Source of the DNA: a virus
Strand: one strand, 5' to 3'
DNA: 41,200 nucleotides
IMG/VR virus record: IMGVR_UViG_3300025110_000036
Location: 1 to 41,200 of that record
Shown one piece after another: positions 1-33,234 of the stretch (position 1 is the first letter of the stretch; each line of letters opens with the position of its first letter). The notes under the pieces are model-generated. The model had not been told where the DNA came from and searched no databases. It saw only the letters and a program-made list of their open reading frames with translations. The translations under genes and the position numbers were made by a program.

Positions 1-6
1 AGTAGT

Positions 7-632: not shown

Positions 633-633
633 A

Positions 634-2689: not shown

Positions 2690-2695
2690 TTAATT

Positions 2696-3292: not shown

Positions 3293-3300
3293 AATTTTAC

Positions 3301-3459
3301 CTAAAAGCAATTCATTTTATCAAGTTCTGCTGGCTTATCATTATAAAACCAAACATAACTAGATATAACATTACCCTCATCTGTTACGACACATTTTTTA
3401 CCTACCGAGCAGGCGCTCAAAGCAAATAATAATGCTAGTATTAAAAATAATTTATTCAT
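3301..3459 (-). CDS. Small phage lipoprotein, 52 aa
   Basis: The start at 3459 is preferred over an upstream ATG at 3528 because it gives a clean lipoprotein signal (Met-Asn-Lys, hydrophobic core, then an LSAC lipobox with Cys17) and has a GAGGAT ribosome site just upstream. After lipidation and cleavage, about 35 residues would remain, with two further cysteines (about 23 and 51). The first eight bases overlap the end of the Cys-rich peptide gene (ATGAATAA), so the two are translationally coupled. Phage lipoproteins of this size are often o-spanins or superinfection-exclusion factors. This one lacks the proline richness of Rz1. The role is not determined. Confidence 0.7.
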   Translation of the reverse strand: MNKLFLILALLFALSACSVGKKCVVTDEGNVISSYVWFYNDKPAELDKMNCF

Positions 3460-3574
3460 AAGTTTTATCCTCTTCTCTTTGCATACATTCACAGTTTTCA
3501 CAGTCACAACCTTTAGCGTCTGCTTCAACGCAGTGACATAGATGATTACATTTTTTACAGAACCTATCCTCCAT
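3452..3574 (-). CDS. Cysteine-rich mini-protein, 40 aa, probable metal binder
   Basis: The ATG is fused to the TAA of the preceding 27-aa gene (TAATG at 3574) and the stop overlaps the lipoprotein start. The 40 residues contain eight cysteines in the pattern C-x2-C-x3-C-x-C-x7-C-x-C-x2-C-x-C (positions 6, 9, 13, 15, 23, 25, 28, 30) plus His11 and His14. No hydrophobic segment is present, so it should be cytoplasmic. The CxCxxCxC cluster resembles metallothioneins, and a small double zinc knuckle is also possible. I do not recognise the family. That the reading frame is real rests on the two fused junctions and the regular cysteine spacing. Confidence 0.6.
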   Translation of the reverse strand: MEDRFCKKCNHLCHCVEADAKGCDCENCECMQREEDKTYE

Positions 3575-3657
3575 TATTTTTCTGGTAGTCCTTTTGCTAA
3601 CCAATTTATAAATTTAATCCATGGCCAACAAACTATTTTCCATAGTTTTTTAATCAT
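3574..3657 (-). CDS. Tiny Trp-rich hydrophobic/basic peptide, 27 aa
   Basis: The ATG at 3657 has a GAGGAG ribosome site about eight bases upstream, within the end of the 216-aa gene, and overlaps that gene's stop by eight bases. The peptide begins with Lys-Lys, contains three tryptophans within an Ile/Val/Trp/Leu-rich amphipathic stretch and ends with a charged tail. That fits a membrane-associating helix, but it is too short for a certain transmembrane call. Its stop is fused to the next start (TAATG). A longer 64-aa reading from 3768 is possible, but it lies inside the upstream gene and has no comparable ribosome site. Function is unknown. Confidence 0.5.
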   Translation of the reverse strand: MIKKLWKIVCWPWIKFINWLAKGLPEK

Positions 3658-4300
3658 TTTTTTTCTCCTCAATTTCGTAGAAGAAGTTGTCTGTGTCTTC
3701 AGTACGCCATCTACTACTATCTTCGACATTCCAATCACTTGTTTGCACCTTCCAGTTAGGAATTTCATTCTTCACTGTAAATGAAGGAATGCTCCATATT
3801 AATCTATTGTTTGGCTGAGCCGCATAGTTGCCATCATCCAAGGCAAGTATATGAGCGCACTTATGTTCGTGCGGTATTTCAGAATGATCTGTATCTAGTA
3901 TATTACTCTCTGGGTGGGCCCAGTCAACAGTAAAAAGATAAGATCCTGGATGCCATTTTTTATCTTTTCCTATGTATTTACCGTGTTGGCCGTCTAAGAT
4001 ATCGAAAGAAGTAACAGCAGGATGGTAACTGAAACAATTCCAAAGCTCCAACTCGTCAAGTCTAGGCCGAGGAACTTCTTGGACATCAAAGCCTCTTTGT
4101 ATGAAGGCACTAATCGGTAAACGATAGAAGACAGCACCATTTTCCATAATTGCATGAAACAATATGGGACGTCCTGTAATCGATGCCAAAGCAAATATAA
4201 TACAGTCTTCGACTTCTCCATGATGTTTTTTAAGGTCATAAAGGTATTCCCTCCTGATCTGTGCGTACGTCACAGGTATGTTTGCGTTTAAATATGCCAT
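3650..4300 (-). CDS. Conserved-type phage protein, 216 aa, unknown function
   Basis: This soluble protein has no signal peptide. It is rich in Trp, His, Tyr and acidic residues and shows several spaced histidines (about residues 130-150). The C-terminal third is polar and tryptophan-containing. No catalytic motif is secure. The downstream mini-genes start inside its end, so it belongs to the same transcript as the DNA polymerase upstream and the envelope cassette downstream. No good ribosome site precedes the ATG. It looks like a family seen in marine podoviruses as hypothetical. I see no evidence that it is an endolysin, although the region otherwise looks lysis-related. Confidence 0.7.
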   Translation of the reverse strand: MAYLNANIPVTYAQIRREYLYDLKKHHGEVEDCIIFALASITGRPILFHAIMENGAVFYRLPISAFIQRGFDVQEVPRPRLDELELWNCFSYHPAVTSFDILDGQHGKYIGKDKKWHPGSYLFTVDWAHPESNILDTDHSEIPHEHKCAHILALDDGNYAAQPNNRLIWSIPSFTVKNEIPNWKVQTSDWNVEDSSRWRTEDTDNFFYEIEEKKND

Positions 4301-4317
4301 TTAACATATAACCTTTT

Positions 4318-4413
4318 CTATGCAATTGCTAAGAGAACCATAATTACTACTGCAGCAATCACTAATTTTTTGTGATCTGTCCATAGGTGTTCTATTTGAT
4401 CTAATATATTCAT
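4318..4413 (-). CDS. Small single-span membrane peptide, 31 aa
   Basis: A perfect AGGAGG ribosome site lies about six bases before the ATG at 4413, overlapping the stop of the DNA polymerase gene. The peptide has a polar N-terminal half (Asp, Glu, His, Trp, Lys-Lys) followed by a run of Val/Ile/Ala/Met/Leu (about residues 18-31) reaching the C-terminus. It is therefore a tail-anchored single-span membrane peptide. Many phage inner-membrane effectors and small holin-type proteins have this form. Function is unknown. The strong ribosome site is the main evidence that it is expressed. Confidence 0.6.
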   Translation of the reverse strand: MNILDQIEHLWTDHKKLVIAAVVIMVLLAIA

Positions 4414-4421
4414 GTTTCCTC

Positions 4422-6269
4422 CTATTTGTCGTATATATCTCCCCAATTTTTACCTGATTCATAATCAACTTTATTAGGGACGTCTAACTTAACAGCATTC
4501 TCCATAATCTCAACTACTTTTTTTGCCTGTTCCGGAGACTCAACAGATAAATCTAATTCATCATGAATTTGAATATGAGCTATAATACCTTCCTTGTATA
4601 AATCAAGCATTGATTTTTTAGTCATATCTGCTGCTGATCCTTGTATAAGTTTGTTTAATGCTTTGTATGTATATGCTCTTCTTATATTACCTTGTCCATG
4701 TTCTTGCACTGCTTGCTCAAATGGTAAAGCTTTATTTATTCCAAAACGATTTGGTTCCCATAAATGGAAGCGACAAAGACGACCTAGCAACGTACGGATT
4801 TGTCCTCGTTGTTGTGCTCTGTTAGATACAGACTTCATTAATGTTTTTACAAATGGAACTCGTTGATGATAGATAGCAAATAGTTCTTCCGCTTTATCTT
4901 TTGATACTCCTAGCTCTGCTTGCAACTTAGCTTTACCCATTCCATAAAATAAACCAAGATTAATTGTTTTAGCTTGGTCTCGTGGTATGTCAGCCATTTT
5001 AGAAACAGTTGTATGAAAGTCTGCGTCTGAATTTAGATAAGCATCTTTAACTCCAAAGACACTTGTATCTTGATCAAGGGATGCATAGTGAACTACAAGT
5101 CTTGGTTCTTGTTGACTGTAGTCAAAACATCCCCACTCGCAACCTTCTTCAGGTACAAAGAGGGATCTTATCAATGGACCTAAATCTTTGTTACGAGCGG
5201 GAATCTGTTGTAAATTAGGATTAGAATACGAAAATCTTCCAGTGACTGTTCCACCTTGATCAGATCTTATTTGATTAATATCTGCGTGTATTCTACCTTT
5301 ATGTTCATATCTTATAATAGTATCAATAAATGTTGTATGTGCCTTGTTAACTTCTCTTGCTTTTGCTATCTTCTGTACTAGAGGATGACTATGAGCAGAG
5401 AGAAAATTTTTTGTAAATGAAGGCGCTTTGGTCTTTAAAGTTCTTTCGTATTCTAATCCAAGTTTGTCAAAAACTTTGGCTATCGATCGTGCGGCCCATA
5501 TTTGACAATCTATTTGTGTTTCTTTTTTTACTTCTTGCAGCAATTGCTTTTCTTGTTCAAACAATTTTTGTTTCAGCTTATGCGCATTTTCCACGTCGAC
5601 ACGAACGCCTTTAAATTTCATATCAACTAAACATGGAAATAAGTCTGTCTCTAAATTAAAAATAGCTTCTAGATCCTGGTCAATAATTTCTTTTTGCATG
5701 ACTTTCCATAAATCTAATGTTAGTTCAGCATCTCTTTCTGCATAACTACCTACATACATAGATGGTAACATCCACATATCAGATTTAGGATCAATACCCC
5801 ATTCATTTGCTGCAGCTCTTAATTCTGTTTCATTTTTACCACGGCCAACATAGTCCCAACCTAAAGAATTTAAATCAAATCTAAATCTATTTTCATTAAC
5901 TAATGATGCTGCAATCATAGTATCAAAGATTCTACCATTTATTTTGATACCCATGGATCTTATCCAACATACATCATACATTGCATTGTGAAATATTTTG
6001 TCAGCATTAGACTTACAAACATCTGTAAACCATTGAATGACTTTAGCTTTTTCTAAATTTCCTCCGCCTTTGTGATCAAAAGGAAAGTATCCTGAGTAGC
6101 CATCTGTGGCTACAGCGATACCTACAACTTTTCCTCTACCTACTACAGCGCCTGATCCCATTGATTTTAAATCAGGATCATGTGTTTCTAAATCAATTGC
6201 AATTTGAGAACAGTCTCGTAAATCTGGAAACTCTTCTGGTTTATTCCATTCAGTTTGTGCTTTAAACAT
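4422..6269 (-). CDS. polA: Family A DNA polymerase with 3'-5' exonuclease
   Basis: This is the replicative DNA polymerase, 615 aa. Proofreading motifs are present: Exo I Asp26/Glu28, Exo II Asn95/Asp99 and Exo III Tyr176-x3-Asp180. Polymerase motifs are complete: a TGRF...NLQQIP stretch at about 343-356, motif A DYSQxE at 383-388, motif B R430-x3-K434-x6-FYG (441-443) and motif C HDE at 569-571. The residue equivalent to E. coli Phe762 is Leu438. The 5' nuclease domain of cellular Pol I is absent, as is usual for phage enzymes. The start is fused to the stop of the DUF3310 gene (TAATG). It should work with the AEP primase and the SF1 helicase encoded just upstream. Confidence 0.97.
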   Translation of the reverse strand: MFKAQTEWNKPEEFPDLRDCSQIAIDLETHDPDLKSMGSGAVVGRGKVVGIAVATDGYSGYFPFDHKGGGNLEKAKVIQWFTDVCKSNADKIFHNAMYDVCWIRSMGIKINGRIFDTMIAASLVNENRFRFDLNSLGWDYVGRGKNETELRAAANEWGIDPKSDMWMLPSMYVGSYAERDAELTLDLWKVMQKEIIDQDLEAIFNLETDLFPCLVDMKFKGVRVDVENAHKLKQKLFEQEKQLLQEVKKETQIDCQIWAARSIAKVFDKLGLEYERTLKTKAPSFTKNFLSAHSHPLVQKIAKAREVNKAHTTFIDTIIRYEHKGRIHADINQIRSDQGGTVTGRFSYSNPNLQQIPARNKDLGPLIRSLFVPEEGCEWGCFDYSQQEPRLVVHYASLDQDTSVFGVKDAYLNSDADFHTTVSKMADIPRDQAKTINLGLFYGMGKAKLQAELGVSKDKAEELFAIYHQRVPFVKTLMKSVSNRAQQRGQIRTLLGRLCRFHLWEPNRFGINKALPFEQAVQEHGQGNIRRAYTYKALNKLIQGSAADMTKKSMLDLYKEGIIAHIQIHDELDLSVESPEQAKKVVEIMENAVKLDVPNKVDYESGKNWGDIYDK

Positions 6270-20167: not shown

Positions 20168-21411
20168 TATATAATCCTGTTCTGTAATTTCTGTGCGTTA
20201 GCGAACATGCCTCTTGCACCTTCTAAATTATTCATAAGGTCTTCCATTATTTCTGCGCCTTTGTCAATGTCTCCACCGCCTGCGCCTCTTACAGCATCAG
20301 CTGTAAATACAAATTCATTTTTACTTAATCTTGCGGGTACATCATCTGCTTTTTCTTCGCCGCCTAAAGCTACAAAGCCTCCTTCATTTCTATAATCTTT
20401 TTCCATGCCACCTAAATCCATAAGTCCGCCTTCTTGTGCTCCGATTCTTCCGCCTTGAGCTGCTCTTGTAACTTGTTCTGGTAAAAATCTTAATCCTGCT
20501 GCTGCACCTTCTGCATCAGTTCCTCTTGCCGCTGCTGCAATAGCTGCTGGATCAATGCTTGTTGTGTCCATAGGTAGTTCATCTTTAGGTAAACCTTCTA
20601 CATATTTACCAACTGCTGCACCTATGCCTAAAGGATAAAGAGGATTGACTCTTGCATCCTTACCTTCACCTAGGTAGGGACTTAAAGCACTAGAAAATAT
20701 TCCTGATCCGCTGCCTACGTTTTTATTAAGACCAGCAAGTTCTAAAACTTTAGTTAAAGTTGCAGAAGGAAGATCTCGTAATTCTTTTGGAAGTTCATAT
20801 CCTCCTGGCATTGTCGTTGGAAATGTCGGAGGTGTCATTGTTCCACCTGGTAAATTTACTCCCGGAATCATATTTACAAGATTTGTTATACCAGTGCCAG
20901 TAGTCTGCATTACGTCTGCTATAGATCCTAGTACAGGAACACCTTCTGCTTTACCTAATAAATCTCCTAGCCATCCTTGACCATATCCCTCTGGTAAAAA
21001 TTTTGTAGAACCACCCACAAGGGCAGCAGTTAATAGTGGATTTTCTTTAATTTCATTTGGAATAATATCGTCTTTAATTTTTCTAACTAGATCGCCAAGA
21101 AAATATCCTTGACGTTTTTCTAAACCAGCAATACCTCCGCCAGCCATCATTTGTTTTCTTTGTTGTGTGTAAGTACCTGGTCCTGATGCCATAATTCCTG
21201 AATCTTGTTGTGGTGCTTTGCTCATTTCGTCATAAAATTCTCTTGCTCTTTTAGCTGCTTCTTCAGGAGAAAAACCCATTCCTATTAGTTCATAATAGAT
21301 GTCTTCTAAAGTACTCTCCTGGCTAGGTTCCATTGAAGCCATCTGTTGATTTCCAGATAGTCTTATGTCTGGAGCGCCTGCGTTTAATGAATCTGAATCT
21401 TTATTATACAT
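20167..21411 (-). CDS. Virion-associated protein with DDVPARLSKNEFVFTADAV-type motif, 414 aa
   Basis: The C-terminal region (about residues 355-395) carries a motif reading DDVPARLS-x3-FVFTADAVRGAG, followed by a GD and a short helix. This motif recurs in phage proteins near tail and ejection genes. The N-terminal part holds a helical hairpin-like segment (about 30-65) and a KRQGYFLGDLV stretch. The middle is Gly/Pro/Ala-rich with hydrophobic patches. It probably belongs to the inner virion or tail interior. No ribosome site is clear. A possible weak promoter or leader precedes it (21412-21493). Function is not established. Confidence 0.68.
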   Translation of the reverse strand: MYNKDSDSLNAGAPDIRLSGNQQMASMEPSQESTLEDIYYELIGMGFSPEEAAKRAREFYDEMSKAPQQDSGIMASGPGTYTQQRKQMMAGGGIAGLEKRQGYFLGDLVRKIKDDIIPNEIKENPLLTAALVGGSTKFLPEGYGQGWLGDLLGKAEGVPVLGSIADVMQTTGTGITNLVNMIPGVNLPGGTMTPPTFPTTMPGGYELPKELRDLPSATLTKVLELAGLNKNVGSGSGIFSSALSPYLGEGKDARVNPLYPLGIGAAVGKYVEGLPKDELPMDTTSIDPAAIAAAARGTDAEGAAAGLRFLPEQVTRAAQGGRIGAQEGGLMDLGGMEKDYRNEGGFVALGGEEKADDVPARLSKNEFVFTADAVRGAGGGDIDKGAEIMEDLMNNLEGARGMFANAQKLQNRII

Positions 21412-21493
21412 AGTTATATTGTTGGTTATTTTATTAAGGCAGGGATTTAACCTGAGTTTATATTATTACTTAATTTATATTAATAAATCAAGC
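21412..21493 (-). promoter_or_regulatory. Intergenic AT-rich gap with weak promoter-like signals
   Basis: The 82-base gap contains, on the minus strand, a TTGATT hexamer and TATAAA-like hexamers, but the spacings (17 or 23) are not ideal. It also has a small CAGG/CCTG stem. I see nothing decisive. It may be an internal promoter for the ejection-protein genes. Confidence 0.25.
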
Positions 21494-21835
21494 TTATGTT
21501 GTTACTTCTCTAGGCTTTATTTCAAGGGCTGATAGCACCACATGAAGCCTATTGGCAGTCGCTGCTGTAACCTTTATAATTTCGCTCTCCTCAGCGACTA
21601 AAGGGCCTGTTAACAGCTCTGATGTTGCGTTTGCTGATATCGCCTTAGTCTTAAATAGACTAAAAACAGCTGAATCAGTGTCGGTTATTGTTACAGTAAT
21701 GGTATCAGCATTACCTGAATCTTCGGATACGAGTATAGATTTAATGACAGCGGTTGTAGCTGTCGGCACAGTATAAATTGTTGTAGCACTGGTGCTGGTT
21801 AAATCGACTTTTTTATTTACAAATGCGTTTGACAT
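21494..21835 (-). CDS. Small beta-rich probable structural protein, 113 aa
   Basis: The sequence alternates Thr/Ser/Val/Ile, with a TIYTVPTATTAVIKSILVSE start typical of small phage beta-sandwich structural proteins. There is no signal peptide or cysteine. Similar small Thr-rich proteins are found among tail or decoration proteins of marine phages. The start is fused to the stop of the 54-aa gene. Position between the 328-aa and 414-aa proteins suggests it is in the tail or capsid surface. Exact role unknown. Confidence 0.68.
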   Translation of the reverse strand: MSNAFVNKKVDLTSTSATTIYTVPTATTAVIKSILVSEDSGNADTITVTITDTDSAVFSLFKTKAISANATSELLTGPLVAEESEIIKVTAATANRLHVVLSALEIKPREVTT

Positions 21836-21999
21836 TAAGCTAAAAATAAAGCAATGGCTTCTGCTTCCTCTTTTATTTCTTGTTGAAAAGATGTGTTAAG
21901 TTTTTGTATTACAGAATCTACATCTCTTACAAAAGATTGTTGAACCTGTTGATCATATTGTAGTAACGGTTGTGTTAACGATTGTACGATTCTAGCCAT
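21835..21999 (-). CDS. Small helical protein, 54 aa, between fused start/stop junctions
   Basis: The gene is bounded by TAATG overlaps at both ends (stop of the 328-aa gene at 21999, start of the 113-aa gene at 21835), strong evidence for a real coupled frame. The product is Gln-rich in its first half, then acidic (a KEEAEA segment) with a short hydrophobic C-terminus. It looks like a single amphipathic helix. No family is recognised. Being among virion genes, it may be a small structural or chaperone-like partner. Confidence 0.65.
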   Translation of the reverse strand: MARIVQSLTQPLLQYDQQVQQSFVRDVDSVIQKLNTSFQQEIKEEAEAIALFLA

Positions 22000-22985
22000 T
22001 ATATTCCTTGTTGTACTGGTACTAAAAATTTATTAATTTGTTCAATATAATTCATCAAATTATCTCTTTGTCCAGATGTTAAATTTCTACCTTGATAGGA
22101 TCCTTTTCTTAATATATCTTCTACTATACTTCTTCGTTTAAATAACTCTGCTTTTTGTGTATTCTGAACACCTAATAATTTTGCTCCTGATTCAAGTCCT
22201 TCACCAGTAGCTACTTTTTCTGCTACCGTTTTAACTCTTTGTCCATCTCCACCACTAGCAACAAGTGGTGTTGTTTTTTTAGTCTCTGTTGTTGGTGTTC
22301 TTGTTAATGCTGTTCGTATCGTTTCTTGAACTCCTTTTGGTATAAATCTTTTTGCTGTTTGGTATTGTCTATAAAGATTATAAGGTTTAGCTAATGCAGT
22401 TCCTGCTAATAATTGTGGAGCTAACACTCCTAATGCTACATTTTTTAATGTTGTACCAATACCTGATTTAGGTGTTGGCGCAATGGGTTGTTGAACTTGT
22501 CTAACGTATCTTTTAAATCCTTCATCAACCTTAGGCTCATCTAAAACTTTTAATAATGGATTATAAGACACAGATCCAGGATCCGTAACTTCACCTTGAA
22601 TATCTCTTATATCTACTATGGGTGCAGTATCAAACCCTGTTAAATCTGTAAGAGCATCTATGTCTCCCGTGTCTAAAAATTCTTCTTGTCTTTGTCTAGC
22701 GTCTGCTGTTTTTTTTAATGCTTCTTGAAAGCCTACATCAACTCTACCTTCTGCAGCTTGTTGTGCTGCTCTTTGAGCATTTAATGCATCTGTTCTAGCT
22801 TGCTCTGCTGCTGCCGCTGCCGCTGCTGCTCTTGCTATTTCTTCTCTTTGAGCTGCTGCTCGCATTGCAGCTCCACCTTCGCCGCCACCGCCGCCACCGC
22901 CGGTTCTACCTCCACCGCCACTGGAGCTTCCTCCAAAGCCAGCTCCTCCGCCATATCCTCCTGGTGTTCCTGCTCCTCCTGGCAT
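21999..22985 (-). CDS. Gly-rich N-terminus plus Ala coiled-coil protein, 328 aa
   Basis: The first ~40 residues are almost only Gly with Ser, Thr, Ala and Pro. A charged helix with an uninterrupted run of eight alanines follows (about 53-60) and continues as coiled coil to about residue 105. The rest is mixed, with a basic central part (about 170-230) and a polar C-terminus. The DNA is locally very GC-rich for this genome because of the GGN and GCN codons. It lies directly after the gp10-like tail gene (TAATG fusion), so it is probably a tail or internal virion protein. No family is recognised. Confidence 0.65.
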   Translation of the reverse strand: MPGGAGTPGGYGGGAGFGGSSSGGGGRTGGGGGGGEGGAAMRAAAQREEIARAAAAAAAAEQARTDALNAQRAAQQAAEGRVDVGFQEALKKTADARQRQEEFLDTGDIDALTDLTGFDTAPIVDIRDIQGEVTDPGSVSYNPLLKVLDEPKVDEGFKRYVRQVQQPIAPTPKSGIGTTLKNVALGVLAPQLLAGTALAKPYNLYRQYQTAKRFIPKGVQETIRTALTRTPTTETKKTTPLVASGGDGQRVKTVAEKVATGEGLESGAKLLGVQNTQKAELFKRRSIVEDILRKGSYQGRNLTSGQRDNLMNYIEQINKFLVPVQQGI

Positions 22986-25138
22986 TATCGTCTCCCGTCC
23001 GGTTGTATATCTAATCTAAAGGTACCCACTTTCCAGTGTTGTGCTAAACCTGTATTCGATATTTTTAAAGCTATAGCACGTGCGCGCGCTCTTGTATCTA
23101 CTTTAGTTGTTGACGAAGTAACATCAAAAGGACCTAAGGAAGAACTGGCTTCCGAATCCGTTGGGTAATTTTTTAAATTAAGTGTTACTCTTGTTGTTCC
23201 TGTTTGTGTTAAAAAATCTGGTAATACTCTTCTTATTTTCATTATATTTTCTCCATCACCTCGTAGATCAGCACCGCCACCTTGTGTTTGTGCTATATCA
23301 AAATCTCCTGATTGTATATTAGCAGTAATAGCTGTTGATGTTCCAGCTTTAATTTGATTGTTGCCTGTTTCATGTTCATAGTAAGTTGTACATCCATCGG
23401 TATTACCCACCGTTGAATCACTTGTTGAACTTGAATCATATTCTGTTCCATGCGGCTTGCCAAAAATGGCAGAGTCTGCCCATGTCGATCTTGCTAATGA
23501 GCTTGTTGTCCATACCGGTCTTTCAGGTGATGAATCCATATAGTTATAAGTCACTGATCTATTATTAGATGCTGCACCACTTCCAGGATAGAACCATGTC
23601 ACTTCACCAAACAAATTATTCAATCCTGCATAGATATGATTTTTAGGAACCGTGTTAATATCATCGTAAACATAATCCTCGACTAAACACGATAATGATT
23701 CTAGTCGACCTGTATATCTAAAGAAACCATTTTCTGACATCCAGTAAGCCGAGCCATCTACTTCCACAGCCGCATTTTTACCAATGAGTCCACAGTTCGT
23801 ACCTACTTGTTGAAAAGAAAATACAAATGGTGCACCTACAAATCTCATAATAAACATAGATGTATCGGTCCAAATGTAAATGGCATCACGACCTCTAAGT
23901 GCTCCGACAATTCTTGTACCATCTGCAAGTCGCTGTGTACCTGCGGTGTTGGTTGCTGTAGGCGCCCATGAAGTTAATGATTCTTGGTCCGACCATCGAA
24001 TGTACATATCATCTTGTGTTGATGTTGTACCAATGGTTGTTTCTGTACCAAAAGCGACTAAGTGTCGATCGGGTGTAGAGACTAAAGTTTGTGTTGTTGC
24101 TGTTGGGCAACCTGAGATAACTGTTGCTCGTGTTGATGTTGCTCCTGCTGCATTGGCATCCCATTCAAAAGAAGAGCCATCGACAATCGTTGCAATTAAT
24201 TTGTTTCCAAAATTATCAAGTGTCCAGAGACCAGGAGCAGTTACAATATCTCCTGTTTGTGAAGCACCCCATTTTGTATAATCTGATGCATCGGTTACTG
24301 TAGCTTCGTCACTGTGTGATGCTGCTGTTGTGTTATCCGAACCTCGTGTCAATCCTGATAGTGTATTCGTTCCTGTTGTATTTGTTGTATAAGCAATACG
24401 TTCGTTGTCAATTAAAACTGTTCCTGATGCAGGAAAAGAAGCTGAGTCATCCATAACAATGCTTGATGAACCACTTGTTAAAGCTCCATTTAAGGTATCC
24501 GTTAATTCTCCAGCAACAGTACCACCCCATAAACCTAAACCCCAACCAGCAGCAGATTCTTCAACCGCTGGACCGATAGAATAAAAATGTTTAACTCTTA
24601 CTCCTCCGGATGTACTGGCTCCCGATCCACTTTCGACCGATCCCATTTCGACTGTAAGGGTTGTGCTAGACGGGACGGAGGTAACCATGAAATTCGTATC
24701 GTCAAAATCATCAGAATCAAAATTAGAATTGGTAGCAGAGCTAAAATTATCACAACGTATAATATCAAACTTAGAAATACCATGAGCGCTCGCAAACGTG
24801 ATCGTAACTGTTGCATCGCTTTGTGTTGTTGTAAAAGCATTAGTTAAAGTTGTTGTACTTTTAAGAGGAGTTATATCATAAAAAGCTCCTCCTGAATAGA
24901 CGTATAAAAATCGGTTTGTTCCTAATGCAGCATACTTGATACCTGCTGAACTGACAAAGTGGTGTAAAGCTGTGTTTCTTCCTGTAAGCGTGTTGTCTCC
25001 TAGCTGAGCCCAACCACCTACTTTTTCAGGCGTGCCATATCTAAAACGAACAAAGTCACCACTTACCCATTGGCCTTCGCCACCCGTTGCGGTTACTTGT
25101 TTATTAAATCCAGGTTGAAAATTTACTTTTTGTAGCAT
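22985..25138 (-). CDS. P22 gp10-like tail hub / DNA-stabilisation protein, 717 aa
   Basis: The N-terminus (QWVSGDFVRFRYGTPEKVGGW) and the central region (about 400-500), with a WTDTSMFIMRF strand, a GTNCGLIGKNA turn and an AYWMSENGFFRY strand, match the beta-propeller type of phage tail-stabilisation proteins related to P22 gp10. Residues about 219-283 contain an inserted beta module (SSSIVMDDSASFPASGTVLI then GLTRG) of a kind seen in phage tail proteins. Such proteins plug the portal-adaptor channel and connect to tail needles or spikes. A T7 gp12-like tubular B role is an alternative. The gene follows the tail lectin genes with a 2-base gap. Confidence 0.75.
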   Translation of the reverse strand: MLQKVNFQPGFNKQVTATGGEGQWVSGDFVRFRYGTPEKVGGWAQLGDNTLTGRNTALHHFVSSAGIKYAALGTNRFLYVYSGGAFYDITPLKSTTTLTNAFTTTQSDATVTITFASAHGISKFDIIRCDNFSSATNSNFDSDDFDDTNFMVTSVPSSTTLTVEMGSVESGSGASTSGGVRVKHFYSIGPAVEESAAGWGLGLWGGTVAGELTDTLNGALTSGSSSIVMDDSASFPASGTVLIDNERIAYTTNTTGTNTLSGLTRGSDNTTAASHSDEATVTDASDYTKWGASQTGDIVTAPGLWTLDNFGNKLIATIVDGSSFEWDANAAGATSTRATVISGCPTATTQTLVSTPDRHLVAFGTETTIGTTSTQDDMYIRWSDQESLTSWAPTATNTAGTQRLADGTRIVGALRGRDAIYIWTDTSMFIMRFVGAPFVFSFQQVGTNCGLIGKNAAVEVDGSAYWMSENGFFRYTGRLESLSCLVEDYVYDDINTVPKNHIYAGLNNLFGEVTWFYPGSGAASNNRSVTYNYMDSSPERPVWTTSSLARSTWADSAIFGKPHGTEYDSSSTSDSTVGNTDGCTTYYEHETGNNQIKAGTSTAITANIQSGDFDIAQTQGGGADLRGDGENIMKIRRVLPDFLTQTGTTRVTLNLKNYPTDSEASSSLGPFDVTSSTTKVDTRARARAIALKISNTGLAQHWKVGTFRLDIQPDGRR

Positions 25139-25140
25139 AA

Positions 25141-26217
25141 TTATCTAGCCGTACAAGGTACTCCATTTGAATTAACTAAAGGTTGTTCTGCAAAAGCTAT
25201 ATAAATATAAGTTCCGCCTGAATTATTAACTGTTGCGTATGTACCTCTTAATTTAAAACCATTAGATAAAATATCAAAACCAAAATTACCAGCATTAGTA
25301 TCTTCGGCACTTGTTGCTTGAGCTTGTAAATATCCTGAAGAACCATTATACCCAGCTCTTTTATTATCATATATATACCAACTACCTGTGCTATCAGTTC
25401 TTTTTATCATAACGTAAGCTGGTCGAAAACCTGTAAAAACCACTGGTCCATTAGCATTTCCGTTTCCAGTGTATGATCCAAATTTACTGAAGCCTTGTAT
25501 TCCTGTCCAAGCATAAGCAACCATTGTTGAACTACTTGCGTTAATATCAGTATAAGTACCTATCGAATAAACAGTTGAAGTAGGTGCTGTATCTTGCCAA
25601 GCAGTTGCATTATCTACCAATGCTCCCTCTCCATGTAAAACCATATAATCTGTTTCAGCATCAGAAGCGAAACCTTTGTGATATACCAACCATTCACCTG
25701 AGGCACTAAATCTTTTTACAATGAGCCATTCTGGAGCCGCACCAAGTCCGTGTCCAACTGTAGCATTTGCTCCTGTACCAGTATATGATGATATTGAAAA
25801 ACCAGCTGTTGTTGAAACACTTGTTGTTGTTGTATTGATTGAACCATCTGTATTAGAAGAACCAGCACCAGCACCAGCTTTCCAACACCAAGCAACATGA
25901 GTGTTTGTATTTCCATTTAATGCACTCCAAGGACCTAAAGTAAATCCATCACTATCAAAAGATTTTACTCCAAAATTAGGATCGGCAGTATCAGAAGATG
26001 TGTAATTTCTGTTAGTTGCCATCCATTTATTTACACCTCTAACTACATCAAAAACAGTATGGTCGTCAGTAAAATTTCTTCCTTTAAGAATTATTAAATC
26101 TGGTTGCATATCTGTATCGGTGTCATCAAAAGTAACTGTTCGATCATCATTACCATCTCCAGTATAGAGCTGAACTTTAAAATGTGCTGTAGGATCGTCT
26201 ATTGTTGTATAAGCCAT
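25141..26217 (-). CDS. Triple-repeat tail surface protein (DUF7483-like), 358 aa
   Basis: Three related modules can be seen at about residues 16-60, 140-183 and 243-290. Each begins with a YTGxG turn, continues with a hydrophobic strand of the type P-x2-(L/V)(I/M)(I/V)K and then a Trp or Phe strand before a charged turn. Such modules occur in marine phage tail proteins (I believe the DUF7483 family). The protein is beta-rich, neutral and Gly/Ser/Thr-rich, consistent with a virion surface or receptor-binding component. It starts on the fused TAATG with the SPRY gene, so it is coupled to it. Confidence 0.7.
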   Translation of the reverse strand: MAYTTIDDPTAHFKVQLYTGDGNDDRTVTFDDTDTDMQPDLIILKGRNFTDDHTVFDVVRGVNKWMATNRNYTSSDTADPNFGVKSFDSDGFTLGPWSALNGNTNTHVAWCWKAGAGAGSSNTDGSINTTTTSVSTTAGFSISSYTGTGANATVGHGLGAAPEWLIVKRFSASGEWLVYHKGFASDAETDYMVLHGEGALVDNATAWQDTAPTSTVYSIGTYTDINASSSTMVAYAWTGIQGFSKFGSYTGNGNANGPVVFTGFRPAYVMIKRTDSTGSWYIYDNKRAGYNGSSGYLQAQATSAEDTNAGNFGFDILSNGFKLRGTYATVNNSGGTYIYIAFAEQPLVNSNGVPCTAR

Positions 26218-27347
26218 TATCCATACTCCGCGAGATTCTTAGTACAGATTGCAAAGTAGCCGCTTGGTGGAGCATATTCAAAAGTCGTTCCACCATCATT
26301 TGCATCTGCGTTAGCTGATGAAACTGCCCACGTTGTTCCACCACCAAAATTATAATTTGAATTATCACTATCTCCACTAAAACCACCAGTCATCGGTGTG
26401 TAATAAGTATTTGTAATTGATATAGCTCCAGTACCTGTTGCACCTGATTCTGGATCTCCGCTATTTTGCCATGTGCCGTTTTTTGAAAAATATAACTTAT
26501 TATTGTCCAGATCCAATGCTACACCAATAATATCGTTGGCGGCAAAAGTATCACCATAAGCCTGTGTACTATCATTATCTAACGAATATCCATTATTACC
26601 ATAATAACCAATAGCTAACTTATCTCCGCCAAATAAATTAAAACCACCTGCTGTTCCATCATCTTGCATATCATTTGAATTTACAACACTTTCACTTGCA
26701 ATTCCCATAGTAGTATATTTAGCATCAGTTTGAGAACCTATTTTATTTTCCCAATACCATTTTCCCTTATTAACAAACATAGTACAAGGAACAAAAATTC
26801 CACTATAATCGTGTGCAACTAAATTACCTCTTGTAATTGAAACACTATCATTACCACCTAAGCCTGATCCAAAGAATAAACTATTAATGACAGGAAAATT
26901 GTTAGTGGGGGAGTCTGTCATCTGGTCTGTTGCGGCTAGATTAACTTCTGTTAGATCCGTGCCGCCGTTTGCGTCGTTCCCTAGGTTACTACTATCTTCA
27001 AAATCTAAATAAAAACCATTGTTGCCAAAGGTTAATGATGAAACATCTTTCGGCTTCCATATTGAAGGGCTGTCCTCATCATACTCACCGAAATCACTTG
27101 CGGCATATTGAGTTCCATCTACAAAAACAACTTCTGCCATATAGCCATCAAAATACATATTGGTACTACTTGTTCTACGACCAACTGCTATTGTGTTTCC
27201 ACTATCCATAGCATCACAATCTGTATTTTGGCTTGGATAAACATTAACATAAGTATTATCATCATTTTGTTGAACACCATTTACATACAATTTCATTCGG
27301 TTTGCTGCTGTACTTTGTGTTGTATCTACTGCAAAAACTACGTGCAT
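26217..27347 (-). CDS. C-terminal half of a split LamG/SPRY tail protein, 376 aa from the internal ATG
   Basis: This frame continues the LamG-like domain of the upstream fragment and then carries a SPRY-like domain (GKWYWENKIG, TTMGIAS, an IIGVALDLDNNKLYFSKNG segment, and a closing GG-containing beta part). Both are carbohydrate- or protein-binding beta sandwiches. The ATG at 27347 lies inside the duplicated 107-bp repeat and lacks a ribosome site, so it is probably not a natural start. Removing one repeat copy joins it in frame to the 150-aa upstream piece, giving one 488-aa protein. If the duplication is real in the phage, this half may not be translated. Its stop is fused to the start of the triple-repeat gene. 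Confidence 0.75.
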   Translation of the reverse strand: MHVVFAVDTTQSTAANRMKLYVNGVQQNDDNTYVNVYPSQNTDCDAMDSGNTIAVGRRTSSTNMYFDGYMAEVVFVDGTQYAASDFGEYDEDSPSIWKPKDVSSLTFGNNGFYLDFEDSSNLGNDANGGTDLTEVNLAATDQMTDSPTNNFPVINSLFFGSGLGGNDSVSITRGNLVAHDYSGIFVPCTMFVNKGKWYWENKIGSQTDAKYTTMGIASESVVNSNDMQDDGTAGGFNLFGGDKLAIGYYGNNGYSLDNDSTQAYGDTFAANDIIGVALDLDNNKLYFSKNGTWQNSGDPESGATGTGAISITNTYYTPMTGGFSGDSDNSNYNFGGGTTWAVSSANADANDGGTTFEYAPPSGYFAICTKNLAEYG

Positions 27348-27468
27348 CCATGCGGCTGGGTATTATCATCATTTTGTTGAACACCATTTACATACAATTT
27401 CATTCGGTTTGCTGCTGTACTTTGTGTTGTATCTACTGCAAAAACTACGTGCATCCATGCGGCTGGGT
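27253..27468. repeat. Perfect 107-bp tandem duplication inside a tail lectin gene
   Basis: The segment 27254-27360 is repeated exactly at 27361-27467; with shared edge bases the identical blocks are 27253-27361 and 27360-27468. The period, 107, is not a multiple of three, so the duplication shifts the frame and truncates the upstream half after a few out-of-frame residues. Deleting one copy makes 26217-27790 a single open frame of 489 codons including the stop. Confidence 0.95.
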
Positions 27469-27790
27469 CTTTGTATTCAGGACTTGTAATAAGTTGTGTA
27501 GATGTACCTCTATCATCAAAAGTACAATGTAAATCGTAATCTGATGGTGCTCTAAATCTAATACCAGTTTGCCATTCATCAGAACTATCTGGCCCAACAT
27601 TAAAAATTGTTTGATCTCCAGCGAATGAGCCTCTTTTAATCCAAGCAGAAAAAGTAAATTTTTTTTCATTTGTAGCTGTACCTAGTGTCTTGTGCATATA
27701 AGGACTATCCCCACTATCAAACCGACAGGAATTAGCTACTTCAAATGATGTATCTGCTGCTGAATTTGCTCCACCTATAAGAAAAGCCAT
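27338..27790 (-). CDS. N-terminal half of a split LamG-like tail protein, 150 aa
   Basis: The sequence starts with a short N-terminal region, then a LamG/concanavalin-like fold: CRFDSGDSPYM, a FTFSAWIKRG strand, an IFNVG strand, and the MHVVFAVDTTQSTAANRMKLYVNG segment. The final seven or so residues (after Asp-Asn-Thr) come from the wrong frame caused by the 107-bp duplication and end at a TAG. The undamaged protein would go on into the rest of LamG and SPRY. Such lectin-like proteins are common on marine phage tails and probably bind host glycans. The start has a GGGG-type ribosome site and follows the 202-aa gene. Confidence 0.75.
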   Translation of the reverse strand: MAFLIGGANSAADTSFEVANSCRFDSGDSPYMHKTLGTATNEKKFTFSAWIKRGSFAGDQTIFNVGPDSSDEWQTGIRFRAPSDYDLHCTFDDRGTSTQLITSPEYKDPAAWMHVVFAVDTTQSTAANRMKLYVNGVQQNDDNTQPHGCT

Positions 27791-27791
27791 A

Positions 27792-28400
27792 TTAAGACCC
27801 CAACACTGGAAATTCGCCTAATGGTCTTGTTACTGAATCATCTTCTTGTTTTGTATATGTATATAAAGTTTCTAAAGCTGGTGTATCTGATGCATTGGTA
27901 ATTGCAGTTTCCATTTCAGCTTGTTTAGAACGAATTCCATTTCTCCATGTTGTAACATTGCTAGGAATAGCTGTTGATTTTTCATATTTACGCGTGACGT
28001 ACCAATCTGTCTCTGATAATAAAGTATTAGCTTGTTGTTTAACTGTTTGAATTAAATTATATTTTAATCCTCTGTATGCTAATTCACCCTCAGTACCTTT
28101 TCCATCAGATTCATCTTGTGCAGTCCATAAAGTATCTGCATGTTTTTTAGCTGTTGCGTTTCCATAAGAAGCGGTAACTTTACCGTTTGCAAAAGCATAA
28201 GAAACATTTGTATTAACATACCAAGCGTCATCTTTTTTCTTAGAGTTGTCCCAAACAATTTCATATATGCCAATCGCTTCTCTTTGCGATTTAGTCCATA
28301 GATTAAATACACCTTTTGGATATTGAATATCTCCAATGGTAATACCTTTATTACCACTTAAAAATTTTGTTATTGATCCGTCTTCTACTAATGCATACAT
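27792..28400 (-). CDS. Tail-fibre-associated protein (fibre assembly-like), 202 aa
   Basis: The N-terminal part (about 1-60) has the layout of tail-fibre accessory proteins that comment on the position of a fibre end. The C-terminal ~65 residues, from TDWYVTRKYE through VTTWRNGIRSKQAEME to the ALETLY helix, match the helical region typical of phage tail fibre assembly proteins, where a conserved TDW begins the helix. It immediately follows the 1021-aa fibre gene (gap of four bases), the usual place for a fibre chaperone. It may also be a permanent virion protein. Confidence 0.68.
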   Translation of the reverse strand: MYALVEDGSITKFLSGNKGITIGDIQYPKGVFNLWTKSQREAIGIYEIVWDNSKKKDDAWYVNTNVSYAFANGKVTASYGNATAKKHADTLWTAQDESDGKGTEGELAYRGLKYNLIQTVKQQANTLLSETDWYVTRKYEKSTAIPSNVTTWRNGIRSKQAEMETAITNASDTPALETLYTYTKQEDDSVTRPLGEFPVLGS

Positions 28401-28404
28401 AATA

Positions 28405-31400
28405 TTAAGCCCTTGTTAAGTTAAGGTTCCTTCCAACTTCTATCCAATGTGAATTATGATATCTAAACGTAAATAAATCAGCCTTGCCTGCAGTCGTTGT
28501 AGCCGTTGGGGCTGTTCCACCTGTAAACTCGAAAACGGCGTTCCAGGCAATAGTTCTGCTACCTGTTCCATCTTGAATACAAACAACAGAAATATATTGT
28601 CCTGTTGTTGGATTAGTTGGTGCATCAAAGGTTACGTTATTTGTTAATGTCACTTGTGCAACTGGCGATGCTCTTACATCCCAATCTTGAGTTGCATCAA
28701 AAGATAAGGTTGCTTCTTCTATATAAATGGCTCCAGTTATTTTTGATAAATTATTAGCATCTGCTGATAATACTTTTGAAGCTGCACTTGTACCTAATGT
28801 TGCAAGGTCACTGTAATTTAATTCTGCTGCTGTAGCTGTAACGGCTGTACCTGCATATGCAAATTTACCAGCTGATGATACATTAAATGTTGCATTGTCT
28901 TCAATTCTTGCAACTTCAGTTCCATCTCTTTGTTGAAATATAATATCTTTAGCATCAACAATGGGTTTAATAATCACATCGCTTGATGAGTTAGTAATTT
29001 TTAAAACTTCTGTTCCTCCAGCTTTAAAACTCCAATCGTTTCCGCCAGCATCTAGAATAATGTCTGCTGCTGCATCAACTGTTAAGTTGTTAGCACTAAT
29101 AACTAAATCAGTACCATCTCCTTCAATTTTTTCTGAATCTCCACCAAATACAATTCCAACATCATTTGGAATATGAATATCTGATGTAGCTGTTAAATTA
29201 ATTTTAGCTCCAGAAGTAACTGTTAGATCTGTGCTATCTCCTTCAATTTTTTCACCAGTGCCAAATACAACTCCTACGTTTGCTGGAATATGCACATCTG
29301 ATGTTGCTGTTAAATTAATCTTAGCACCAGATGTAAAAGTAAAATCTGTACCATCAGAAGCAATACTTTCTCCACCATCATCAAAGAAATATAATTTTCT
29401 ATCATCATTAATTCTCATGACTTCATTACCATCGTATTGTTGGAATACTAAGTCATCTGAATCAACACCAAGTTTAATAATTTGAACACCTGCTGTGCCA
29501 TCCATGTCTAAAGATAATTGTAGTGTGCCTGCATCTTTAAATTCTACATTTCCACCTGCTGCATCAATTACAACATCAGCTGTAGCGTCTAAAGTAATAT
29601 CTGCACCGGAATCTATTTCTGCGATTACAGGTGTAGTTAAAGTTTTATTTGTTAAAGTTTGTGTTGCAACAAGAGATACTAACGTTGAACTAGATCCATC
29701 TGGTAATAACATTTCATTTGTTACTCCTGCTGAGTGTGGTTGAGCTTTTATAATTTGACCATGTGAATTAGATTCGCAGTTAAATTGAATAGCACCTGAA
29801 TTAGTACCACCTAAAACAGTTACATGTCCTGTGCCTTTTGCACTTATATCAAAATCAATATTAGAGTCACCACCAGTAGCTTTTATCGATGGTGGATTAC
29901 CTGTTGCAGCGTTTGTTACATCAAACTGATTAACTGCTGAACTTGTTGTTTGAAATATAATTTGTTCGTTGCCATTTTCATCGGCTATAAAGTGTGCATC
30001 GTCAATTAAAATATTTGCAGAGTTAGTATCTAAATCACCGCCTAATTGTGGAGAAGTATCTTCTACTATATCTGTTATTGCTCCTGATGTAGCAAGTCCA
30101 GCTACAACAACTGATCTTGCAACTTTTTTAAGTCCGCCACCAGAAGTATCCACTGCTATAAATACATCATCATTAGCAATTGTAGAAATTGATGATAAAT
30201 CACCAGCAGCAATTGAATTAAAATTTGTACCATCTGCAACTAATAAATTACCCGCAGTATTTGTACCCATAGTAATGTCATCACCAGATACTGTAAGATC
30301 ACCAGATACAATTACATTACCACTAAATGTAGCTTTACCGGCATCAGACATATCAAAAGTTAAAGGAGTGATAGTTGAACCACCATCATTACCTTTAATT
30401 GAAAAATCCGCATCAGAAACTTTTGTCTCTAATATAACATTGCTTGATGAATTATGAATACGAGCCATTTCAGTGCCATCATCTTCATAAATAATACCAC
30501 TTCCAGCTGTGCCTGCATCAAGAGTAATACCGCCACCAGATTCTACATTAATAGAATCAACAGCTGTACCATCTGAAACGATATCTAAATCACCATCAGC
30601 ATTAGATCCAATTGTTAAACCTGTGTCTCTAAAAAGAAGTTTATTTGCACCATTTAAAGTTAACCCTGTGCCATCTGTATGTGTTAAAGTTGTGTCTGAA
30701 TCTGCACCAAAACTTAATACAGCAGAGTCACTTAATAATTTAAGATCATCACCAATAACAGCATCTGCAGCTACTGAAAGACCACCATCAGTTTGTAGTG
30801 AACCATCAGTTGTTGAAGTTGCGGCAGTCGTATCATCTGTTTTTATAATGCCACTCGCTGTTACTGTAGTCGCTGTTAAGGCTTGTGCAGCAATCGTGCT
30901 ACCTGATTGTGCTGTAAAAGTATTTGCTGTAAATTGAAAATCGTCGGCTCCAGCTATTTTAATATCTATTTGATCATCTGTATCTGCTGTAATGCTTGTG
31001 TCGGCATCAGCGTCTAAAATAAATTCATTACCATCTAAATCAAACGCTCCTGTAGATGAAATTCCTGTGTCGATAACATCTGTACCATTACAATATAAAA
31101 TTTTTGTTCCTTTATCAGTTGCAGCCCAAGTGACACCTGTTTGACCTGAAACTTTTATATTAACGGTATAAGCTCCAGAAGTTTGATTATCTATAATCCA
31201 TAGTTTTTCGTTAGCAGTAACTGTTACAGTTTGATTTCCTGTAATTGTTCCTGTTAAAGCAATGACCATGTTTCTAGCAGCATCACCTACTGTACCGTCT
31301 GTATAAGTTAATGCTGTAGTTTGTACACCACCTGCAATAGATTGTGATACATAGCCACGAAGAGCTTCTTCTAAAATTTGTAAATTGGTATTAGTTTTTG

Positions 31401-31470
31401 TTCCCCAGTTACCGGCGTTCTCGCCAGTGGTCATTAACTCTGTACCAATATCTGTATAACTTGATGCCAT
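28405..31470 (-). CDS. Long tail fibre protein, 1021 aa
   Basis: The N-terminal ~150 residues (DIGTELMTTGENAGNWGTKTN and LWIIDNQTSGAY) form the conserved particle-binding part seen in fibres of marine podoviruses. The rest is a long, repetitive shaft of Asp/Thr/Ser/Gly/Ala-rich beta segments of 20-40 residues, with repeated words such as SGAKINLTATSD and DGTDL, ending in a C-terminal domain with a TGRT-free, Trp-containing tip (about 960-1021). It should contact the host surface. An AGGAT ribosome site precedes the ATG. Codon repetitiveness gives long antisense frames that I do not regard as genes. Confidence 0.85.
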   Translation of the reverse strand: MASSYTDIGTELMTTGENAGNWGTKTNTNLQILEEALRGYVSQSIAGGVQTTALTYTDGTVGDAARNMVIALTGTITGNQTVTVTANEKLWIIDNQTSGAYTVNIKVSGQTGVTWAATDKGTKILYCNGTDVIDTGISSTGAFDLDGNEFILDADADTSITADTDDQIDIKIAGADDFQFTANTFTAQSGSTIAAQALTATTVTASGIIKTDDTTAATSTTDGSLQTDGGLSVAADAVIGDDLKLLSDSAVLSFGADSDTTLTHTDGTGLTLNGANKLLFRDTGLTIGSNADGDLDIVSDGTAVDSINVESGGGITLDAGTAGSGIIYEDDGTEMARIHNSSSNVILETKVSDADFSIKGNDGGSTITPLTFDMSDAGKATFSGNVIVSGDLTVSGDDITMGTNTAGNLLVADGTNFNSIAAGDLSSISTIANDDVFIAVDTSGGGLKKVARSVVVAGLATSGAITDIVEDTSPQLGGDLDTNSANILIDDAHFIADENGNEQIIFQTTSSAVNQFDVTNAATGNPPSIKATGGDSNIDFDISAKGTGHVTVLGGTNSGAIQFNCESNSHGQIIKAQPHSAGVTNEMLLPDGSSSTLVSLVATQTLTNKTLTTPVIAEIDSGADITLDATADVVIDAAGGNVEFKDAGTLQLSLDMDGTAGVQIIKLGVDSDDLVFQQYDGNEVMRINDDRKLYFFDDGGESIASDGTDFTFTSGAKINLTATSDVHIPANVGVVFGTGEKIEGDSTDLTVTSGAKINLTATSDIHIPNDVGIVFGGDSEKIEGDGTDLVISANNLTVDAAADIILDAGGNDWSFKAGGTEVLKITNSSSDVIIKPIVDAKDIIFQQRDGTEVARIEDNATFNVSSAGKFAYAGTAVTATAAELNYSDLATLGTSAASKVLSADANNLSKITGAIYIEEATLSFDATQDWDVRASPVAQVTLTNNVTFDAPTNPTTGQYISVVCIQDGTGSRTIAWNAVFEFTGGTAPTATTTAGKADLFTFRYHNSHWIEVGRNLNLTRA
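29105..29345. repeat. Two tandem ~120-bp repeats in the tail fibre shaft
   Basis: Two adjacent units (period 117-120 bp) encode near-identical 39-40 residue modules, each with SGAKINLTATSD, HIP and a KIEGD-x-TDL ending. They differ by one codon in length and by many silent changes, so the duplication is old, unlike the exact repeat at 27253-27468. Confidence 0.75.
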
Positions 31471-31478
31471 AATTTATC

Positions 31479-31952
31479 CTATGCGCTTCCTACAAATACC
31501 TCTAAATCAACTGCAGCTGTATCTGCTTGAGCTGTAATATCTACTAAATCATTTAATGATACTGTTAATGCTGATCCTCCTGCATGCATCGTATCAATCA
31601 CGCCACCACTATTATCACCTGGATAAATAAACGAGTGACCAGCGTCTACTTTAATTGCAAACTCTGTACTGTCTTCATCTCTAAAAATTAGTGTACAGTG
31701 GTTGCTTGAATCTAAATTTGTAATTCTAATGTATCTAACATCGTCTTCATCAAACTGACCTGCTAGATAACTTTTTGATAAATCTGTTGCAGAAGTTGTA
31801 GCAAAACCTAACAACCCAGTTTCTGTTGTTGAAATAGTTACAATTCTTTTTACTATTTCATTAACACTAGAAATATCTAATGATCGCTCACTGTTATAGC
31901 TGTTATTGTTTAATGTGATTTCTTCTATTACTTTTACTGTTAGTGTTGCCAT
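31479..31952 (-). CDS. Small beta-rich virion protein, 157 aa
   Basis: The sequence is Thr/Ser/Asp/Val-rich with alternating strand patterns and one cysteine. A DDVRYIRITNLDSS segment followed by an HSFIYPG turn resembles small beta-sandwich proteins in phage tails. No signal peptide is present. It sits between the adaptor-like protein and the tail fibre, so it is likely a tail or fibre-attachment component. An AAGGAT-type ribosome site precedes the ATG. Function is inferred from position. Confidence 0.65.
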   Translation of the reverse strand: MATLTVKVIEEITLNNNSYNSERSLDISSVNEIVKRIVTISTTETGLLGFATTSATDLSKSYLAGQFDEDDVRYIRITNLDSSNHCTLIFRDEDSTEFAIKVDAGHSFIYPGDNSGGVIDTMHAGGSALTVSLNDLVDITAQADTAAVDLEVFVGSA

Positions 31953-31961
31953 ATTTTATCC

Positions 31962-32663
31962 TTACGGTGTCTGTTGAGGAACTGGTATACGAGGTTCTCC
32001 ATCCGTATAGTCATCTCTTCTTCTTCGACCTATTTGTTCTGCACCAAACTTCTGTACTTCAGTTTGATATTTTTGTTCATAAAGTTGTAACATATCCATT
32101 GGACCTTTTAAATAGCTAAATGCTTCTACCAAGCATGCATATAAAAGTCCATTTCCAAAATTAAGACTTAAATAATTTGTTGTATTTGCTGAGCTTAATC
32201 CTAGAGGTCTTGCTGCATAGTGTAATTTATACATAAAAGCTGAGCTAGGTGTAGGAACAATAGTAAGTTTTCCTGAAGTCGAAGCTCCAGATCCTGTCGC
32301 TCCTCCAGACATTGCATAGTATTTTGGCGTTCCTGTTGTCGTTTCAGCAGCATCATATTCTCTTAAATAGCTAATATCTTTTTTAATCAGCCAGCCATTT
32401 GCTCCTGTGGCTGCAGTCGTTGATGTATAAACTTGAACTCCTCTAACAAATAAGGTACCTGCAGGTACATTAATACTATCATTAGAAGCTACTAAATTTC
32501 CTATAATTTCTTTTCTATTGGCATCAATCGGTATATCTCTTAAAATTCTAAGTTCTGAATTATCAATAAATTGATCAGTAATCGTACTGGATAATACAGA
32601 AGTTCCAACTTCAGTATAGTTTTGTATTGCTGTTGTTAATGTTGAATAAGTAAATCCTGCCAT
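31962..32663 (-). CDS. T7 gp11-like tail tubular A / head-tail adaptor protein, 233 aa
   Basis: The N-terminal helix (about 1-30) and the RILRDIPIDANR segment are followed by a beta-rich middle. Near the C-terminus a helix reads LLYACLVEAFSYLKGPMDMLQLYEQKYQTEV, broken here as LLYACLVEAFSYLKG and LYEQKYQTEV, which is the hallmark of T7 gp11-type adaptor proteins. These form a ring between portal and tail tube. The last residues are a basic, proline-rich tail. It lies one base after the 189-aa gene and before fibre-region genes, as expected for podoviruses. Confidence 0.78.
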   Translation of the reverse strand: MAGFTYSTLTTAIQNYTEVGTSVLSSTITDQFIDNSELRILRDIPIDANRKEIIGNLVASNDSINVPAGTLFVRGVQVYTSTTAATGANGWLIKKDISYLREYDAAETTTGTPKYYAMSGGATGSGASTSGKLTIVPTPSSAFMYKLHYAARPLGLSSANTTNYLSLNFGNGLLYACLVEAFSYLKGPMDMLQLYEQKYQTEVQKFGAEQIGRRRRDDYTDGEPRIPVPQQTP

Positions 32664-32664
32664 A

Positions 32665-33234
32665 TTATGCTTCTAAAGTTGCCGGACCAGCCGAACAATT
32701 ATTGCCTCCTCCTGATACTCCTCCACTTGTAGCAGTGTTTGTATTCACAGTAAAGTGGTAGTAATCTTCTGTATTATCTATGTCTCCGCTTGAATCTCTT
32801 TTGCCAACGGTAATTGAATACCCTGATGAATCAGCAATATTAGCTCCTGTAATACCATCAAAGCCAACTGGATTTTGATAAGCATCAGAATCCGATGTTG
32901 TATAAATGGGACCTCTAAATCTTACAGTGTCGCTTGTATCTCTTCCATGAGATTTTTCAAATACATTTATAATGCCTGATGAAGCTGAAATAGTTTCAAA
33001 AGGATTAGGTCCTAACATACCAACAACATCTTTTTCAGTTCTTGCTGGTCTCACATGTTCTAACCCATGTCCTTCTGCACCTGTTCCTCTTGGTTCTAAT
33101 TGAGGATGTTTTTCTTCATACTCAGATCTATGAACTAACATACCATTCCATTCCTTCATCATTTCTCTGTATGGAAATTCCATACCTGATCGGTCTGATA
33201 TTGCTTTTGCGTATTTTCCTTTTGCGAATGCCAT
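32665..33234 (-). CDS. Phage structural protein with zinc-ribbon-like N-terminus lacking cysteines, 189 aa
   Basis: The N-terminal ~45 residues (KAISDRSGMEFPY, then KEWNGMLVHRSEYE and KHPQLEP) align with a phage family in which the matching positions are usually cysteines (C-D-x-C-G ... C-x2-C ... KHPQ). Here Ser, Arg and His/Ser occupy those places, so metal binding is doubtful. The second half is Gly/Ser/Thr-rich and beta-like, and one cysteine lies near the C-terminus. Its place between two adaptor-type genes supports a head-tail junction role. The start is fused to the stop of the 254-aa gene. Confidence 0.68.
   Translation of the reverse strand: MAFAKGKYAKAISDRSGMEFPYREMMKEWNGMLVHRSEYEEKHPQLEPRGTGAEGHGLEHVRPARTEKDVVGMLGPNPFETISASSGIINVFEKSHGRDTSDTVRFRGPIYTTSDSDAYQNPVGFDGITGANIADSSGYSITVGKRDSSGDIDNTEDYYHFTVNTNTATSGGVSGGGNNCSAGPATLEA

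Follow-up and report, generated by a model that had tools for sequence, protein, structure and literature searches.

At the locus we examined, a virion gene on the minus strand (26217-27790) encoding a protein with a LamG domain followed by a SPRY domain was split into two open reading frames (ORFs) by an exact tandem duplication. The window, that is, the whole stretch of DNA analysed, is a 41,200-bp linear virus record without end repeats. The gene lies in a module of tail genes, whose features are as follows.

25141-26217, minus strand: DUF7483 gene, next in the module (PF24299, E 1e-106; phrog_24898, tail fiber protein; phrog_19943, virion structural protein)
26217-27347, minus strand: 3' fragment of the interrupted gene, 376 aa, with the end of LamG and a complete SPRY domain (PF00622, E 1e-11, Pfam)
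27338-27790, minus strand: 5' fragment of the interrupted gene, 150 aa, with the N-terminus and most of LamG (Laminin_G_3, PF13385, E 5e-14, profile positions 14-106 of 151, Pfam)
27253-27359, no strand assigned: copy 1 of the duplication, 100% identical to copy 2
27360-27466, no strand assigned: copy 2 of the duplication; the single copy of contig L087 aligns in register here and across the right flank
27467-27468: GT dinucleotide, also present at 27253-27254 and 27360-27361, forming a microhomology at the duplication ends
27792-28400, minus strand: upstream gene with a weak tail-fibre-assembly match (phrog_4912, E 8e-08)
28405-31470, minus strand: tail-fibre-like gene upstream in the module (phrog_31104, unknown function, E 1e-38; phrog_9017, tail fiber, E 6e-04)

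The start of the DUF7483 gene overlaps the stop codon of the SPRY ORF. Both fragments of the interrupted gene matched phrog_27411 and phrog_19943 (virion structural protein), in order. LamG-then-SPRY order beside tail genes and DUF7483 marks the gene as a member of the LamG-SPRY family, from whose usual form, a single uninterrupted ORF, the window gene departs. Homologues with the same domain order were common in marine phages, pelagiphages foremost. Because the genes that vary most in marine phages include lectin-like and tail-fibre genes (PMC3909814), the LamG-SPRY protein may, by analogy, have a role in host recognition. The long tail-fibre-like gene carries a repeat of its own, an imperfect (76%) tandem repeat at 29144-29374 with a spacing of 117, a multiple of three; this is an old in-frame duplication.

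The DNA polymerase A and capsid proteins encoded in the window were about 61% and about 76% identical, respectively, to those of Pelagibacter phage HTVC027P and 023Pt_psg01, and the genes were collinear. Related PolA, capsid and helicase proteins, together with conserved gene order, place the virus with the HTVC023P-type group. Judged by these similarities, the virus is related to HTVC023P/HTVC027P-type pelagiphages, and its host assignment is putative. The nearest DNA match to a named phage (023Pt_psg01) reached only 76.6% identity over 4% of the query. Positions 1-5043 of a contig from another dataset (L107) were 99.8% identical to window positions 20532-25574, an identity by which this contig is another piece of the same virus or of one very close to it.

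A sequence-only reading of this DNA had described a perfect 107-bp tandem duplication breaking an otherwise continuous 489-codon gene into two frames, and both parts of that description held. TRF and a second repeat search agreed on a period of 107, 2.0 copies and a 100% match over 27253-27468, with identical copies at 27253-27359 and 27360-27466. The maximal exact self-match was 109 bp, comprising the 107-bp unit and the 2-bp GT common to both edges. Chance is far too unlikely an origin for an exact match of this length, and the pair was the sole exact tandem pair of at least 40 bp in the window (periods of 40-800 scanned). The copies carried no substitutions, which indicates that the event was very recent. 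We found no DNA hairpin that would explain the duplication, as the segment folds worse than its shuffled versions (z +2.1). The junction between copy 1 and copy 2, GGCTGGGTATTATC, was absent from every other viral contig searched; four contigs (L083-L086) with pattern matches to the repeat edge were rejected because their sequence was unrelated.

Because 107 bp do not make up a whole number of codons, the duplication disrupts the reading frame within LamG. The 5' ORF enters the next copy out of frame and ends at a TAG stop codon (27340-27338), and a comparison of Pfam limits with those of an intact homologue (L002) placed the break near residue 144, inside LamG. When one period is subtracted, 26217-27790 amounts to exactly 489 codons, stop included, in agreement with the codon count of the earlier reading. 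The 3' ORF overlaps the 5' ORF by 10 nt and starts at an ATG within copy 1 that, in the intact gene, encodes an internal Met. Inspection of the sequence upstream of this ATG revealed no evident Shine-Dalgarno sequence, which makes it unlikely that the SPRY part is made separately.

The earlier reading had proposed comparing homologous genes for a single copy, and we found one in two relatives. L087 (IMGVR_UViG_3300010149_001805; 5,392 bp), an independent contig from another dataset, differed from window positions 27360-32745 by one mismatch in 5,386 bp (99.98% identity). Past its one copy, L087 reads ACATAA, the left flank, versus the GGCTGG expected if the unit were duplicated; the left-flank overlap is only 6 nt long (L087 5387-5392, the contig end), and a match of this length has a chance probability of about 1 in 4,096. 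L002, with 91-94% identity across the region, carries a single copy and encodes an intact 491-aa protein with LamG at residues 43-191 (covering profile positions 14-141) and SPRY at residues 311-409. Single-copy and duplicated forms thus exist in one lineage, coming from different records and not from one sample. The one copy in L087 indicates that the duplicated form is not ancestral: it is either a derived allele or an error. That L087 stops 6 nt past the repeat unit is an odd coincidence unless the site disturbed that assembly too. We considered a k-mer account of this contig end and did not rely on it, as a merged-allele graph would need a k near 115, which is not known as a standard value.

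We surveyed the gene family at 169 de-duplicated loci totalling 1.39 Mb, of which ~1.3 Mb were metagenomic contigs. Of the LamG-SPRY genes, 142 were intact, 12 were cut by a contig end and five did not count as full (the window, HTVC202P, L095, L189 and L130). Besides the window gene, only those of L095 and HTVC202P were genuinely broken. An in-frame TGA (4036-4038) interrupts the otherwise intact homologue in L095. L189 was rejected as a split gene because of an NN scaffold gap, and L130 showed partial similarity inside a long ORF; at a further locus, L150, a 13-bp repeat keeps the frame open, and this candidate was likewise rejected. The genuine interruptions were thus two exact tandem duplications of non-triplet length (window and HTVC202P) and one stop codon (L095). 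Three phages, HTVC103P, HTVC104P and HTVC200P (MN698242.1, MN698243.1 and MH598801.1, respectively), each carry two LamG-containing genes. Another homologue lay on a contig (L124) of the SAR11 single-cell genome AG-426-F15; this contig probably stems from phage DNA inside the cell or on its surface.

The complete genome of HTVC202P (MN698248.1), a phage in culture whose laboratory host is Pelagibacter sp. FZCC0015, has been published. In it, an exact 31-bp tandem duplication at 26707-26769 (L088 3352-3414) splits the LamG-SPRY gene, annotated as gp49 and gp50; the break follows the complete LamG domain and falls in the linker. Relatives of HTVC202P carry a single copy (L133 and L189), and its duplication junction was found in no other viral contig searched. 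Assembly error is less likely here because the 63 bp in total fit well within one short read.

For a base rate, 1.01 Mb of near-whole phage genomes (25 genomes: 23 picked for having a LamG-SPRY relative and two synteny references) was searched for exact tandem duplications with a period of 13-600 and a length not divisible by three. Three such duplications were present: the 31-bp duplication in HTVC202P, an 89-bp duplication in HTVC121P and a 94-bp duplication in HTVC022P. The HTVC121P duplication (MH598803.1, 35641-35818; L241 15742-15919) extends over the 3' end of the lectin gene into the beginning of the DUF7483-like gene, and that of HTVC022P (MH598798.1, 39158-39345; L234 19259-19446) lies where a small gene starts. 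Both leave every gene complete, an outcome that random placement gives at ~11-13% each, and relatives lack the extra copy of both units, HTVC019P among others being single-copy for the HTVC022P unit. That two of the three isolate duplications spare all genes favours real events filtered by selection. Two of the three touch the LamG-SPRY gene, which makes up ~3-4% of the genome (binomial, approximately p = 0.004, from small numbers and post hoc); this hints at a hotspot or a tolerance of loss. The isolate duplications, especially the 89- and 94-bp ones, could themselves be assembly or finishing errors.

Taking these results together, we consider it somewhat probable that the window carries a recent, inherently revertible duplication causing loss of function in the LamG-SPRY gene. 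Of the three explanations offered by the sequence-only reading (a recent natural duplication, a reversible switch and an assembly error), the recent natural duplication was the best supported, given the single-copy relatives L087 and L002 (94%) and the similar duplications in cultured pelagiphages. The 107-bp duplication probably arose by replication slippage or by microhomology joining at the 2-bp GT. The predicted product would be a truncated LamG fragment with, at best, little of the SPRY part, and lectin function would be lost. During replication, identical repeats of this size that lie next to each other are lost at an appreciable rate. One copy of the head-to-tail 109-bp repeats would be deleted in replication by slippage or recombination, and the frame would thereby be restored; reversal of this kind is mechanistically to be expected for any 109-bp tandem repeat. 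As repeat loss is expected at an appreciable rate, the allele would be metastable with no need for dedicated machinery. We are thus probably looking at an ordinary mutation able to undo itself rather than at a purpose-built switch. The end of L087 at the repeat edge seems to favour a real allele, in that, in a population with only the single-copy form, no repeat would cause an assembler to stop there. Against a real allele, the junction occurs in one record only, and 107-109 bp is close to short-read and k-mer lengths.

The chief alternative, less probable in our view and still to be taken seriously, is a local assembly error in which contigs overlapping by ~107-109 bp were set end to end with the overlap unmerged, the real gene being intact. 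Passages of PMC9516828 document false duplications from unmerged overlaps in assemblies generally. Such an error would fit the single copy in the near-identical L087, the uniqueness of the junction to the window record and the disruption of a gene otherwise conserved in 142 intact homologues. However, isolate genomes also contain exact tandem duplications of about this size, which makes an error unnecessary as an explanation, and the window alone has one in ~1.3 Mb of metagenomic contigs, which indicates that errors of this type are uncommon in the collection. The particular artefact named in the sequence-only reading, an untrimmed overlap at the join of a circular contig, was not supported and was rejected by synteny with HTVC027P and 023Pt_psg01. 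The linear window maps to HTVC027P from ~30.8 kb through the record end to ~10.2 kb, and between its two ends ~20 kb of the relatives' genome is absent, including the terminase and portal region. We found no long ORF common to both window ends. By this alignment, the window contig is incomplete and its ends are not neighbours in the relatives.

Recurrent, reversible on/off switching of lectin-mediated host binding in SAR11-type phages, with both forms persisting in wild populations, would go further than a single revertible mutation, and on the sequences compared here we regard it as improbable. Selected phase variation, in which the LamG-SPRY gene would be a contingency locus where duplications arise and collapse and turn the host-binding protein off and on, seems very improbable. 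In its favour, this gene family was hit by exact non-triplet duplications in two phages that are unrelated (window and HTVC202P), the HTVC121P duplication covers the 3' end of a LamG-SPRY gene, the enrichment in the 25 genomes (two of three duplications, approximately p = 0.004, small numbers, post hoc) points the same way, and a bacterial precedent exists for the mechanism (Waite et al. 2001, 2003, as cited in PMC4022640 and PMC4243769). By contrast, 142 homologues are intact, the duplicated segments are of different sizes, lie at different positions and have no conserved repeat-prone sequence or flanking element, and the HTVC121P gene is left intact by its duplication. Moreover, a gene that tolerates loss would give the same pattern without selection for switching. 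Finally, that LamG and SPRY are made as separate functional subunits, through re-initiation or frameshifting at the 10-nt overlap, is scarcely credible: the second ORF does start with ATG and the HTVC202P break in the linker leaves LamG whole, but the window break falls inside LamG, the second ORF has no evident Shine-Dalgarno sequence, the copies are undiverged and relatives keep one ORF.

If the favoured reading of a recent revertible duplication is correct, the window holds a natural, frame-breaking and self-reversing duplication in a likely host-recognition gene of abundant marine phages. Cultured HTVC202P, in which the same gene family is affected, offers a direct test system for reversal. 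Exact tandem duplications of 30-110 bp recur, being present in three of the 25 published phage genomes examined, and where a phage record shows a split lectin gene, it may reflect an unstable allele or an assembly error and not a true two-gene arrangement.

Tandem-duplication phase variation is known from pneumococcal capsule genes (the type 3 capsule ORF, cap8E and tts), according to the passages of PMC4022640 and PMC4243769 that cite Waite et al. (2001, 2003). As described there, these genes, like the window gene, undergo spontaneous exact tandem duplication in a surface-related ORF, expected to be inactivating and reversible by copy loss. The window gene shares with them a frame-shifting exact duplication inside an ORF and the occurrence of both forms in the same lineage, in this case in separate records. 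Whereas reversal and phenotype were shown by experiment for the pneumococcal capsule, as the same passages report, the phage gene is known from sequence alone. The window resembles the pneumococcal system at the DNA level, and we do not file it as a proven phase-variable locus. Enterococcus phage EfV12-phi1 likewise has tandem duplications in a putative host-recognition gene, its tail-fibre gene, with original and duplicated forms in one stock (PMC6365445). Those duplications are 1.8 kb long, in frame and linked to increased infectivity, whereas that of the window is 107 bp long, out of frame and expected to cause loss of function. Among pelagiphage LamG-SPRY proteins (phrog_27411 and phrog_19943; for example, HTVC103P gp63 and HTVC022P gp41), the window gene shares the domain order and the DUF7483-like gene downstream; unlike HTVC103P gp63 and HTVC022P gp41, it is interrupted by a duplication. 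A counterpart in this respect is HTVC202P gp49/gp50, a LamG-SPRY homologue that is likewise divided by an exact tandem duplication of non-triplet length, which is 31 bp long and lies in the linker between the domains in HTVC202P, whereas the 107-bp duplication of the window lies inside LamG.
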